The notes beneath the pieces are model-generated. The model searched no databases. It worked only from the letters and a program-made list of their open reading frames with translations, and had not been told where the DNA came from. Positions 18,662 through 31,596 of a DNA stretch of 44,342 nucleotides are shown here, piece after piece; position 1 is the stretch's first letter, and each line of letters opens with the position of its first letter. The stretch is from Chitinophagaceae bacterium (GTDB lineage Bacteria; Bacteroidota; Bacteroidia; Chitinophagales; Chitinophagaceae): assembly GCA_021299175.1 (NCBI GenBank), contig JAJTFY010000010.1:1-44342 (forward strand). The letters run 5' to 3'. The translations under genes and the position numbers were made by a program.

Positions 18662-21352
18662 ATGAAAAAAAACTTGGTCCTGCCGCTCAGGCTACTCGCC
18701 CTTTTCCTGCCTATTGTTCTTGTTATATCCTTTTCTATTCGGAATGAGGATGCGTTTTTCACCGCCGATGATCCAAAAGTTGCCAACCTTAAACTGCCCC
18801 AGGGTTTTAAAGCAGAAAGGCTTTATGGACCTTCTGAGCATGAAGAAGGATCTTGGGTATCCATGACCTTTGACAACAAGGGCAGAATTATAGCATCTGA
18901 CCAATATGGATACCTGTACCGTTTGAAGGTACCAGCCATTGGAGATACCATCAACAAAACAACAGTTGAAAAACTGGAAGTCCTGAAAGATCCTGCTTTC
19001 ATGACCGATACCACAACAGGAAAGGTTTCCATGGGTTATGCACATGGTCTGCTCTATGCTTTCAACAGTTTATATGTGATGATCAACCATCGCGGAAATG
19101 GAAAATTAAAGAGAACCAGTGGGCTTTACCGTCTCCAGGACACTGATGGAGATGATCAGTTTGACAAAATAACCTTGCTCAAATTGCTGGATGGCGATGG
19201 AGAACATGGGCCACACAGCATTGTTCTTGCTCCAGACAAACAATCCCTGTTTGTAGTTTCCGGCAACTTCACAAAAATTCCAAAATTGGATTCATATCAG
19301 AATATTCCAGACGGAAAGTTTGATAACCTATTCCCCTTAATCAAGGACCCCAATGGTCATGATAACACCGTTGAATCCCATGGTGGATGGGTGGCCCAGG
19401 TTGATTCAACCGGCAGCAAATGGAACATGTATGCGTCAGGCTTCCGCAATCCTTTTGACCTCGCGTTCAATAATGCTGGAGAGATGTTCACTTATGATTC
19501 TGACATGGAGTGGGATTTTGGCACACCATGGTACCGCCCTACCAGAATTCTCCACGTTACCAGCGGTGGTGAATACGGCTGGAGACCCGGCACCAACAAA
19601 TGGAATGCCAACTACCCTGACAACCTTCCGGCAGCCGTTAATGTAGGACAGGGATCTCCTACCAATTTTGTATCTGGATCCAACGCAAAATTCCCGGAGA
19701 AATACCGCAATGCATTGTTCGCCTTTGACTGGAGTTTCGGCATCATTTATGCCATCTATCCAAAATCAAACGGTGCATCCTACACTGCAACAGGTGAAGA
19801 ATTCATTTCTGGATCCCCGCTCCCATTGACTGATGGAGTTATAGGACCTGATGGCGCATTGTATTTCCTTACCGGAGGCAGAAGGCTGGAGTCAGACATG
19901 TACCGTGTTTATTATGCAGGATCTGAGACGAAGAATACTGCCATGGCAAAAGTTGAATTAAATGAAGCACAAAAAACCCGTAAGAAGTTGGAAACCTATC
20001 ATGGGAAACCAACGGCAGGTGCCGTGAATGAAGCCTGGCCCTTTTTAAAGGACAAGGATCGTTTCATTCGTTATGCGGCGCGCATCGCTGTTGAAGCACA
20101 ACCGCTTGCGGAATGGACTGATAAAACAATCAATGAAAAAGATCCGGTAATCCTTACCAATGCAGCGATTGGTCTGGCAAGGCGTGGTGATGCGAAAGTC
20201 AAGAAGCCATTGCTGACAGCTCTTACCAATGTAAATATTTCCTTGCTCACAGCGCCACAGCAGCTGGATTTGATGCGTGCCATTGAACTTGTCTTTACCA
20301 GGATGGGCGCACCTGATGGAGCTGAAAAAGATGCTGTGGCTAAATTACTGAGTCCCATTTTCCCGGCTGCCACCAATGAGCTCAACAAGGAACTCAGCAA
20401 GCTATTGGTCTATGTTGATGCACCAAAAGCTGTTGAAAAAACAATGGCCCTCTTGGCTGTTGCCAAAGATGACATGGCTGCACAGAAAACAGTTTCTGAA
20501 TCATCAGACCTGATTCTTCGCAATCCACAGTATGGAATGGACATTGCAGGCATGTTGTCCAAAATGCCTCCACTCACACAGACCTGGTATGCAAATGTTT
20601 TGAGCCAGGCCAAGAATGGCTGGACAGATGATTTGAGAACCAAATATTTCCAATGGTATTATTCCGCATTCGGTTACAAAGGAGGTGTTTGTTATGTTGG
20701 TTTCATCGATAAGGCAAGAAAAAATGCATTAGAAAATCATCCTAAAGAAAGTTTTGCAAAATACAACAGAATCTCTGGAGACTCGATTGTAACCCTTGCC
20801 AGGAAAGGCTTGGACATTGGACCTGTAAGGCCGAAAGGTCCAGGCCGTGGATGGAAACTTGCTGAAGCCTTGGCCGTCGTAGACAGTGCCAACGGAACAA
20901 GAAATTTTGAGCAAGGAAAAGCAATGTTTGCCGCATCCCTCTGTCGTACCTGTCACCAGGTCAGAGGAGAAGGTGGTATTGCAGGTCCAGACCTTTCCCA
21001 GCTGGGAACCCGGTTCTCCAACAAGGATATGCTTGAAGCCATCATCTCCCCTAGCAAGACCATCTCAGACCAATATGGTTCAACGGTGTTCTACCTCAAA
21101 GCCGGTGGCTCACTCATGGGAAGATTGATACGCCAGGACAATGACAAATACTACATTTCACAAAATCCTTTTGACACTCAAACCATCAAGGAGGTTTTGA
21201 AGAAGAATGTTGCCAGAACCCGTGTATCTGAGGTATCTCCGATGCTGCCTGGTATGATCAATGGCCTGAACCCTGAGGAACTCAAGGACCTGATGGCCTA
21301 CTTGAAATCCGGTGGCAATCCAGCTCACCCTGTTTACAATTCAACCAAATAA
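18662..21352 (+). CDS. Beta-propeller (PQQ-dehydrogenase-like) protein with C-terminal heme-binding CxxCH domain
   Basis: Propeller segments DRIIASDQYGYLYRL-type, HEAT-like middle region, C-terminal AASLCRTCHQVRGEGGIAGPDLSQLGTRFSNKDMLEAIISPSKTISDQY. Confidence 0.83.
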   Translation: MKKNLVLPLRLLALFLPIVLVISFSIRNEDAFFTADDPKVANLKLPQGFKAERLYGPSEHEEGSWVSMTFDNKGRIIASDQYGYLYRLKVPAIGDTINKTTVEKLEVLKDPAFMTDTTTGKVSMGYAHGLLYAFNSLYVMINHRGNGKLKRTSGLYRLQDTDGDDQFDKITLLKLLDGDGEHGPHSIVLAPDKQSLFVVSGNFTKIPKLDSYQNIPDGKFDNLFPLIKDPNGHDNTVESHGGWVAQVDSTGSKWNMYASGFRNPFDLAFNNAGEMFTYDSDMEWDFGTPWYRPTRILHVTSGGEYGWRPGTNKWNANYPDNLPAAVNVGQGSPTNFVSGSNAKFPEKYRNALFAFDWSFGIIYAIYPKSNGASYTATGEEFISGSPLPLTDGVIGPDGALYFLTGGRRLESDMYRVYYAGSETKNTAMAKVELNEAQKTRKKLETYHGKPTAGAVNEAWPFLKDKDRFIRYAARIAVEAQPLAEWTDKTINEKDPVILTNAAIGLARRGDAKVKKPLLTALTNVNISLLTAPQQLDLMRAIELVFTRMGAPDGAEKDAVAKLLSPIFPAATNELNKELSKLLVYVDAPKAVEKTMALLAVAKDDMAAQKTVSESSDLILRNPQYGMDIAGMLSKMPPLTQTWYANVLSQAKNGWTDDLRTKYFQWYYSAFGYKGGVCYVGFIDKARKNALENHPKESFAKYNRISGDSIVTLARKGLDIGPVRPKGPGRGWKLAEALAVVDSANGTRNFEQGKAMFAASLCRTCHQVRGEGGIAGPDLSQLGTRFSNKDMLEAIISPSKTISDQYGSTVFYLKAGGSLMGRLIRQDNDKYYISQNPFDTQTIKEVLKKNVARTRVSEVSPMLPGMINGLNPEELKDLMAYLKSGGNPAHPVYNSTK

Positions 21353-21354
21353 AC

Positions 21355-22398
21355 ATGCCTCAACAGCAGATTTGGAGCGATAAGGTTGGAAATGTATCAC
21401 AGGTTGGGGGCATTGAAACGTCTGTGCTTGACAATGGCATCAGCAGGGGCATGCGTGTTGCCTGGATCAATACCGGAGCCGGACTTCGCTTCAAGGTGTT
21501 GATCGATAGGGCAATGGATATCGCTGATGCTGCTTACAATCAATACAACCTGGCCTGGTTGAACCATGCTGGGTTTCCACCACCACAACCTTCTTCAGAC
21601 AAGGGTTTGGATTGGCTCCGAACCTTTGGCGGCGGCCTGGTGACTACCTGTGGCCTCTCCCATGTTGGCGGACCAGAAAAAGATGCATTTGGTGAAAGAG
21701 GAGTGCACGGCAACATCAGCAATATCCCGGCAGAAATTGTCTCCATTGTTCAACCAGATCCTGAAAACGGAAACATGAACATGAGCATCACCGGCATCAT
21801 CAGAGAATCTAAAATTTTCGGTCCGGCACTGGAGCTCAGAAGAACCATTTCCGCAACGCTTGGTGTTTCTGGATTCAAGATCCATGATGAGATTTCCAAC
21901 AGGGGCAATACACCTGCACCACACATGATCCTCTATCATTGCAATTTCGGATGGCCCCTTGCAGACAAGGGAAGCCTATTGATATGGAAGGGCAAAATGC
22001 TCACCCGTGATGGGAATGATTTCCCCAATGGCGAAGCTTTTAAAACCTGCCCTGATACCCTGATGAACCACAATGGCAATGGTGAAGAAGTGGCAATTGT
22101 TGATATTGAGGCGTCTGAGAGCGGACAATGCATCTGTGGCCTCCACAATCCTGCGTTGGAATTGGCTTTAGCAATTCAATTCAATAAAAATGAATTGCCA
22201 TGGATGACCAATTGGCAACACTGGGGCAAAGGTGAATATGTTACAGGCCTTGAACCGGGTTCTCATCCGCCCATTGGCCAATCCAAAGCCAGGGAAAATG
22301 AAACACTGATTTTCATCTCACCTGGAGAACACATCCAGTACAATCTTTCATTCCAAGCCATTCAAGGAAATGAAAACATCGACAAAAATTTTCATTGA
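21355..22398 (+). CDS. DUF4432 / aldose-1-epimerase-like protein
   Basis: GGIETSVLDNGISRGMRVAWINTGAGLRFKVLIDRAMDI...GLVTTCGLSHVGG. Confidence 0.78.
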   Translation: MPQQQIWSDKVGNVSQVGGIETSVLDNGISRGMRVAWINTGAGLRFKVLIDRAMDIADAAYNQYNLAWLNHAGFPPPQPSSDKGLDWLRTFGGGLVTTCGLSHVGGPEKDAFGERGVHGNISNIPAEIVSIVQPDPENGNMNMSITGIIRESKIFGPALELRRTISATLGVSGFKIHDEISNRGNTPAPHMILYHCNFGWPLADKGSLLIWKGKMLTRDGNDFPNGEAFKTCPDTLMNHNGNGEEVAIVDIEASESGQCICGLHNPALELALAIQFNKNELPWMTNWQHWGKGEYVTGLEPGSHPPIGQSKARENETLIFISPGEHIQYNLSFQAIQGNENIDKNFH

Positions 22399-30847: not shown

Positions 30848-30888
30848 TCCAGATTCAATCAATAACAATCAAGCATCAATCCACTTTC

Positions 30889-31596
30889 ATGATTTTACGC
30901 AACCGCCTCAGCATTCTTTTTCTGCTCTGCTTCATGGGTTCCTCTGTGATCACATCAGCACAGAAAAAAGATGGTTTCAAGAAAATTTTCAATGGAAAGA
31001 ACATGAAAAACTGGGAGGCCGATACTTCCCATTGGCGCATTGAGAATGGCTGCTTTGTTGGTGAAGTAACCAAAGAGAAACCGCTCAAGACCAATACTTT
31101 CATGATTTACCGTGGAAACACCCCTGAAAATTTTGAATTCAAGGCATCCTACCGCATCAGTCCGGAAGGCAACTCTGGCGTGCAATACCGCAGTGAGGCC
31201 CTGGACAATGTGCCATTTGCCTTGAAGGGATACCAGGCAGATATCGATGGTGCAAACCGCTACACAGGTCAGAACTACGAAGAACGTGGCCGTGGCTTTC
31301 TGGCCATGCGGGGTGAACAATCCGTATTGAAGGAAGGACAGAAGCCAACCATCACTGGGTCTGTTGGAAAATCCGATGAGCTGAAAGCAAAAATCAAAGT
31401 CGATGATTGGAATGAGATCCACATCATCGCCAAGGGCAACCATCTCATGCATTATATCAATGGCGTACTGATGAGTGAAACAACTGATGAAGATACTGTC
31501 AAACGAAAATTCACCGGCCTGATAGGGCTTCAGGTGCATGTGATGGCAAAAATGAAAGTGGAATACAAAGACATCTACCTCAAGAAAATCAAGTAA
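30889..31596 (+). CDS. DUF1080 protein (3-keto-disaccharide hydrolase family), secreted
   Basis: Signal peptide MILRNRLSILFLLCFMGSSVITSAQ; FKKIFNGKNMKNWEAD...SPEGNSGVQYRSEAL; start corrected from 30754. Confidence 0.87.
   Translation: MILRNRLSILFLLCFMGSSVITSAQKKDGFKKIFNGKNMKNWEADTSHWRIENGCFVGEVTKEKPLKTNTFMIYRGNTPENFEFKASYRISPEGNSGVQYRSEALDNVPFALKGYQADIDGANRYTGQNYEERGRGFLAMRGEQSVLKEGQKPTITGSVGKSDELKAKIKVDDWNEIHIIAKGNHLMHYINGVLMSETTDEDTVKRKFTGLIGLQVHVMAKMKVEYKDIYLKKIK

Follow-up and report, generated by a model that had tools for sequence, protein, structure and literature searches.

A conserved Bacteroidota gene cluster with predicted exported propeller-cytochromes as a candidate locus for 3-keto-type glycoside utilisation

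We analysed a stretch of 44,342 nucleotides from a Chitinophagaceae bacterium (assembly GCA_021299175.1, contig JAJTFY010000010.1, positions 1 to 44,342; hereafter the window), in which nine consecutive plus-strand genes, named g1 to g9, span positions 18662-31596. The assembly comprises 2.27 Mb and is 98% complete. A first-pass annotation of the window had described these genes as an operon that ends at a strong terminator and encodes a candidate cytochrome-linked pathway for degradation of 3-keto-glycosides. The nine-gene operon was confirmed. Every gene has an ATG start, g6 at 27761 and g9 at 30889 once longer open reading frames starting with TTG had been set aside, and the successive intergenic gaps from g1 to g9 measure 2, 25, 12, 43, 14, 24, 33 and 41 nucleotides. 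A hairpin lies directly after the g9 stop codon (31599-31629), with a stem of 14 base pairs and a minimum free energy of -17.4 kcal/mol (z = -3.6); none of 200 shuffled sequences was as stable. This palindrome is predicted to act as a bidirectional intrinsic terminator, and it can probably also terminate the tRNA-Val gene found beyond it on the minus strand (31637-31712).

Two genes of the operon encode large proteins in which a propeller is fused to a cytochrome c domain. The product of g1 (18662-21352) is predicted to be exported and combines a propeller of the six-bladed type, helical repeats and a cytochrome c domain (CxxCH at residue 761). That of g4 (23651-26827), also predicted to be exported, carries an SGNH-like domain, a DUF7133/TIGR02604 propeller, HEAT repeats and a cytochrome c domain (CxxCH at residue 939), with matches to the Pfam families DUF7133, HEAT_2 and Cytochrom_C. 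The TIGR02604 model was passed by g4 (226 bits, cut-off 122); g1 passed TIGR02603 (91 bits, cut-off 68) and remained under the TIGR02604 cut-off with 68 bits. Structure comparison of the predicted g1 model, whose mean predicted local distance difference test score (pLDDT) is 77, gave as best fold matches the pyrroloquinoline quinone (PQQ) glucose/aldose sugar dehydrogenases (1cq1, E 2.5e-11). An iterated profile built from the aldose sugar dehydrogenase YliI of E. coli reached g1 at about E 1e-7 and g4 at about 1e-4 via intermediates. Direct hhalign comparison of g1 with YliI was insignificant, and PF07995, the GSDH family, was matched neither by g1 at E values up to 10 nor by g4 in a standard Pfam search. 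As judged from the iterated profile and the predicted fold, g1 and g4 are homologous to PQQ sugar dehydrogenases (GSDH). Residues H182, R262, N263, the CxxCH motif and M861 are invariant in g1; CxxCH is kept throughout the cytochrome domains of both families together with one Met, which may be the distal heme ligand. The N-terminal domain of g4 (residues ~40-260) resembles SGNH hydrolases and is probably not a hydrolase, because its serine block reads IGNNLG and its DxxH block DGxQ, both invariant in relatives.

The other genes, with the exception of g3, belong to families that Pfam and NCBIfam assigned as the first-pass annotation had done. DUF4432 is represented by g2 (21355-22398; PF14486, E 2.3e-96), a predicted cytoplasmic member of an aldose-1-epimerase-like fold family whose profile matched the structure of a hypothetical aldose 1-epimerase (3ty1, E 1.4e-32), and ThuA by the predicted exported g5 (26871-27746; PF06283, 50.2 bits against a cut-off of 33.4). 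Two TIM barrels of the AP_endonuc_2 family follow. The first, g6 (27761-28612), is ketose 3-epimerase-like: its profile matched D-tagatose/D-psicose 3-epimerases at E 5e-42 and the 3-keto-D-glucoside 4-epimerase 6wn6 at E 5e-19, and the metal site of the ketose 3-epimerases is conserved (E150/D183/H209/E244). The second, g7 (28637-29671; PF01261, E 2.9e-13), is divergent, with 80% mean column identity, invariant E174/D203/H206/H253/D310 and no significant match among solved structures. The Gfo/Idh/MocA NAD(P) oxidoreductase g8 (29705-30847) is levoglucosan-dehydrogenase-like. Its best NCBIfam model is that of levoglucosan dehydrogenase (NF052479), for which it stays under the equivalog cut-off (342 against 650 bits); levoglucosan dehydrogenase 6a3f is its closest solved named enzyme (full-length profile match, E 1.5e-91), scyllo-inositol dehydrogenase can also be aligned over its full length, and EKP, D196 and H200 are invariant. 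The last gene, g9 (30889-31596), encodes a predicted exported DUF1080 protein of the 3-keto-disaccharide hydrolase family (3keto-disac_hyd, PF06439, 129.9 bits against a cut-off of 26.8) that matched the solved 3-keto-disaccharide hydrolase-domain protein 8rr2 and putative glycosyl hydrolases.

The cupin assignment proposed for g3 (22424-23638) was not confirmed: Pfam gave nothing for it up to E = 10, the weak resemblance to mannose-6-phosphate isomerases among solved structures (E 0.3) is insignificant, and the predicted model is poor (mean pLDDT 57). This predicted cytoplasmic protein is highly conserved, with a mean column identity of 83% over the phylum and at least 8000 homologues, the named ones being called 'hypothetical protein', and it bears an HHxHHxD motif that could bind metal. 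We regard it as a probable sugar-metabolism enzyme.

Export was called by a hydropathy test for a hydrophobic N-terminal stretch, no signal-peptide predictor being used, and was assessed over the orthologues of each gene. Such a stretch was found in 92% of the orthologues of g1, 97% of g4, 71% of g5 and 92% of g9, against 0-3% of those of g2, g3, g6, g7 and g8, so that the two groups are clearly apart. Four families (g1, g4, ThuA and DUF1080) are thus predicted to be exported and five to be cytoplasmic. This split suggests that oxidation and cleavage take place in the periplasm and that uptake then leads to conversion in the cytoplasm.

Conservation of the locus was followed with g3; scanning GTDB genomes by sequence yielded 432 relatives of it. 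The best 80 of the 432 share 82-98% identity and come from Chitinophagaceae, Larkinella, Spirosoma, Dyadobacter, Pontibacter, Adhaeribacter, Parapedobacter, Rhodonellum, Flavobacterium and others; within the sampled genus, g3 was found in 23 of 41 other genomes (24 of 42 including the source), and three more genera of the family have it. We then read 53 loci with long flanks (34 groups) that were picked by g3 similarity and hence describe the neighbourhood of g3, not an unbiased sample. They contain g7 and g8 in 52/53 cases each, g2 in 50/53 and g1 in 43/53, almost always on one strand, with g7 adjoining g8 in 52/53; DUF1080 (g9) is no more than 10 kb from g3 in 51/53 and also adjoins g1 at several loci that lack g3. 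A sample of 399 Bacteroidota genomes, where the hypergeometric probabilities ignore relatedness, pointed the same way: a high-scoring g3 is present in ten of them, and all ten also have g1 and g7 (28/399 and 16/399 overall), g1 being on the same contig within 6 kb of g3 in nine. All ten have g4 as well (40/399 overall), within 15 kb of g3 in six. The gene set occurs together beyond chance, and the gene-neighbourhood co-occurrence that had been put forward for checking is conserved within Bacteroidota.

The nine genes are not one invariant set, as had been supposed, but two modules. A core made of g1, g2, g3, g7, g8 and usually g9 is shared across Bacteroidota, including many from soil and fresh water; g4, ThuA (g5) and g6 form a separable part, inserted between g3 and g7 in this genus, whereas in other genera it follows the core, lies on the opposite strand or is missing. 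Several genomes have the pair of g4 and ThuA without g3. SusC/SusD genes and a ribose-type ABC importer border the locus in Larkinella and Spirosoma; other relatives have major facilitator superfamily (MFS) permeases there. Distant homologues of g3, in another family of bacteria, reside in an island with GH13, GH2, kinase and ABC sugar genes, a context that supports a role in sugar metabolism but no specific substrate.

The locus extends beyond the operon, to a linked divergent gene pair that the first-pass annotation had overlooked. Upstream of g1, on the minus strand, lie a heme protein with DUF2231, PSCyt1, PSCyt2 and PSD1 domains (15919-18483; PF07635, PF07583, PF07587; CxxCH at residues 256 and 532) and its partner, a DUF1501 protein carrying an RR motif close to its N-terminus (14477-15904; PF07394, E 2.8e-71). 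The 178-bp region between the PSCyt gene and g1 (18484-18661) is a probable regulatory region with putative promoter function. The pair is linked to the operon: orthologous pairs adjoin g1 in eight loci of relatives (L070, L084, L090, L099, L102, L110, L111 and L112), and the pair is co-directional with g1 and directly 5' of it in Flavihumibacter, Fibrella, Pedobacter-type, Cyclobacteriaceae and other loci.

That this is a conserved keto-sugar catabolic locus appears to us fairly probable. As to what it does, we tentatively favour, with somewhat less than even confidence, a role in 3-keto-type glycoside utilisation across the cell envelope, with exported heme-linked oxidation, cleavage by DUF1080 and cytoplasmic conversion. 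A glycoside would enter the periplasm, where an exported redox system would oxidise a ring position of the sugar, most probably C3, and pass electrons through c-type heme to the respiratory chain. The exported g9 would then cleave the 3-keto-glycoside, and the released keto-sugar would be imported into the cytoplasm and turned into an ordinary sugar by the mutarotase-like g2, the TIM barrels g6 and g7, g3 and the NAD(P)-dependent g8. In this scheme the slot held by the GMC-type LacABC dehydrogenase in the Caulobacter lactose cluster would be filled by g1 and g4, possibly together with the PSCyt/DUF1501 pair. We infer the substrate, the C3 position, the direction of flux and the role of the propellers as oxidant. 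The 3-keto-glycoside pathway of the first-pass annotation stands as a plausible and the most likely reading, one that fits known gene sets and the export split, while its propeller oxidation step is a hypothesis that competes with several others.

Co-conservation over many genera and families supports this reading, and the SusC/SusD and ABC or MFS flanks, the closest relatives of g6, g8 and g9 and the GSDH-like propellers support it too. When the four GMC proteins of this genome were used as queries, no match was obtained in the fetched core loci (L031-L130), an absence that, flank length varying by locus, is certain only for the stretches read; over these and L162-L171 the sole match lay in L170, a locus with g4 only. 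Given the lack of GMC matches in those core loci, and by their place in the cluster, g1 and g4 are candidates to be the oxidase or its heme acceptor. That the propellers perform the oxidation or serve it directly is possible, and we would put it somewhat below an even chance.

Several observations weigh against the envelope-spanning pathway. The canonical PQQ/Ca site is incomplete in both propellers. In the YliI-profile alignment, the catalytic His and the Arg-Asn, EHGP and RxR positions are all present in canonical relatives. In g1 the His (where aligned, and invariant within the g1 family) and Arg-Asn are retained, but the GP of the Ca site appears as DM and the two Arg of RxR as P and T; g4 keeps the His and the Asn, but the Arg of Arg-Asn appears as Pro and the second Arg of RxR as V, and since this is a remote profile alignment single residues call for caution. 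A canonical PQQ dehydrogenase was rejected for both proteins, the ligand set being partly replaced; they are heme proteins on a sugar-dehydrogenase fold, with a putative cofactor at most. In this 98% complete genome the PqqE model scored at best 70 bits against a cut-off of 381, the other pqq genes not having been searched and scavenged PQQ being possible; one canonical GSDH is encoded. As the PQQ/Ca site is partly lost and no PqqE exceeds the cut-off, the name of dehydrogenase given earlier to g1 and g4 is unproven, while the GSDH-like fold stood. With ten matches in 2.27 Mb, DUF1080 is unusually dense in this genome, so that the copy in the operon would be weak evidence of substrate, and the family includes a reported endo-xanthanase (PMC9007349). 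Four GMC proteins are encoded in the genome, all on other contigs than the operon and some with a small-subunit-like partner, and could make 3-keto-glycosides without the propellers; one of their genes neighbours those of a small protein and of a BT_2158-like Gfo/Idh glycoside 3-dehydrogenase (515 bits against a cut-off of 750). Another GMC gene was seen beside an arylsulfatase-like gene. These GMC loci are candidate canonical 3-keto modules. Finally, g8 could itself be the C3 dehydrogenase.

The last of these points leads to the alternative that survives best, which we consider unlikely while giving it real weight. Oxidation would be cytoplasmic, with g8 as NAD-dependent C3 dehydrogenase and g7 and g6 performing elimination and hydration, as in the pathways for levoglucosan (Lgd) and of Agrobacterium (OGE), and the propeller-cytochromes would act otherwise, in sugar binding, sensing or another oxidation. 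The full-length match of g8 to 6a3f and its best NCBIfam model speak for it. Lgd clusters also share parts with the locus (Gfo/Idh enzymes, a pair of TIM-barrel proteins and an ABC transporter for sugar; PMC7676230; PMC10066097), and an Agrobacterium operon combines an oxidoreductase with two sugar phosphate isomerases for elimination, hydration and reduction (PMC10628242). However, g8 falls far below the levoglucosan dehydrogenase cut-off, Lgd requires two Gfo/Idh enzymes where the core has one, and no role is left for the exported g9 and the conserved g1. The levoglucosan pathway as such was rejected on the equivalog score of g8.

We find it improbable that the 3-keto-glycoside comes from a GMC/small-subunit dehydrogenase whose genes lie at another place in the genome, with g1 or g4 only as its heme acceptor and the locus supplying the downstream steps. 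Such an arrangement would agree with the GMC genes described above, with the eroded canonical PQQ site of the propellers and with the example of LacABC, whose three components come from one cluster (PMC9007349), but a dedicated partner would usually be expected and no GMC gene stands by the core in the fetched relatives. Least probable to us is the degradation of another sugar, polyol or sugar acid by families of general sugar handling: Gfo/Idh, AP_endonuc_2 and DUF4432 are broad, g8 and g6 align with scyllo-inositol dehydrogenase and ketose 3-epimerases respectively, and g3 and g7 are without a characterised close relative, but this would not account for the regular presence of DUF1080 close to g3 and, in several loci, to g1.

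Elsewhere in the window, the S-adenosylhomocysteine hydrolase gene (38456-39723) is split into two overlapping open reading frames, with a break near 39176 in the NAD-binding region that could be either an assembly frameshift or a real lesion. Two long open reading frames, 34245-37034 (929 aa) and 42066-43025 (319 aa), had no Pfam match.

To our knowledge, neither the TIGR02604 nor the PSCyt family has an established function. In the locus, proteins from both families stand with a defined group of sugar enzymes, which adds specific partners to the carbohydrate role that He and co-workers proposed from gene context for PSCyt proteins of lake/freshwater Verrucomicrobia (PMC5615132). Its carriers include named cultured strains of Larkinella, Spirosoma, Dyadobacter, Pontibacter and Segetibacter, which makes the idea testable. 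It seems to us rather unlikely that g1 and g4 form a new class of periplasmic glycoside 3-dehydrogenase, with a PQQ-type fold, a replaced PQQ/Ca site, a fused heme c relay and PSCyt/DUF1501 partners; the replacement in g1 would then be the invariant DxDMEWD motif. If true, this would give a function to a large heme-protein family. Heme-linked C3 oxidation outside the cytoplasm, put forward earlier as what sets the operon apart, is not in itself new, cytochrome-linked periplasmic C3 oxidation being known from LacABC (PMC9007349), and novelty would be limited to the type of enzyme.

Among known systems, LacABC oxidises lactose in the periplasm and occurs with DUF1080, also in Bacteroidetes; the Caulobacter lac cluster comprises a periplasmic cytochrome-linked dehydrogenase, DUF1080, a transporter, two sugar epimerases and a sugar reductase (PMC9007349). 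Our locus has the same anatomy, including the exported DUF1080, but no GMC-type dehydrogenase was detected in it or in the fetched core loci, and the propeller-cytochromes, g3, DUF4432 and ThuA are extra. With the Lgd clusters it shares an LgdA-like Gfo/Idh protein and TIM barrels, and in some relatives the ABC importer (PMC7676230, PMC10066097), whereas g8 is under the equivalog cut-off and the exported DUF1080 and the heme proteins lie outside Lgd. The GSDH enzymes (PF07995) have the propeller fold in common with g1 and g4, and the catalytic His and Arg-Asn positions with g1. They differ by the Ca-site GP and RxR replaced in g1, the Arg lost in g4, the fused HEAT-like and cytochrome c domains and the lack of a PF07995 match. 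Closest in domain make-up are the PVC-type CxxCH proteins (TIGR02603/TIGR02604, DUF7133), of which g4 is a member by score, whereas g1 carries the TIGR02603 heme domain and falls below the TIGR02604 cut-off, and the PSCyt/PSD1 proteins, to which the divergent partner belongs as a PSCyt1/PSD1 protein.

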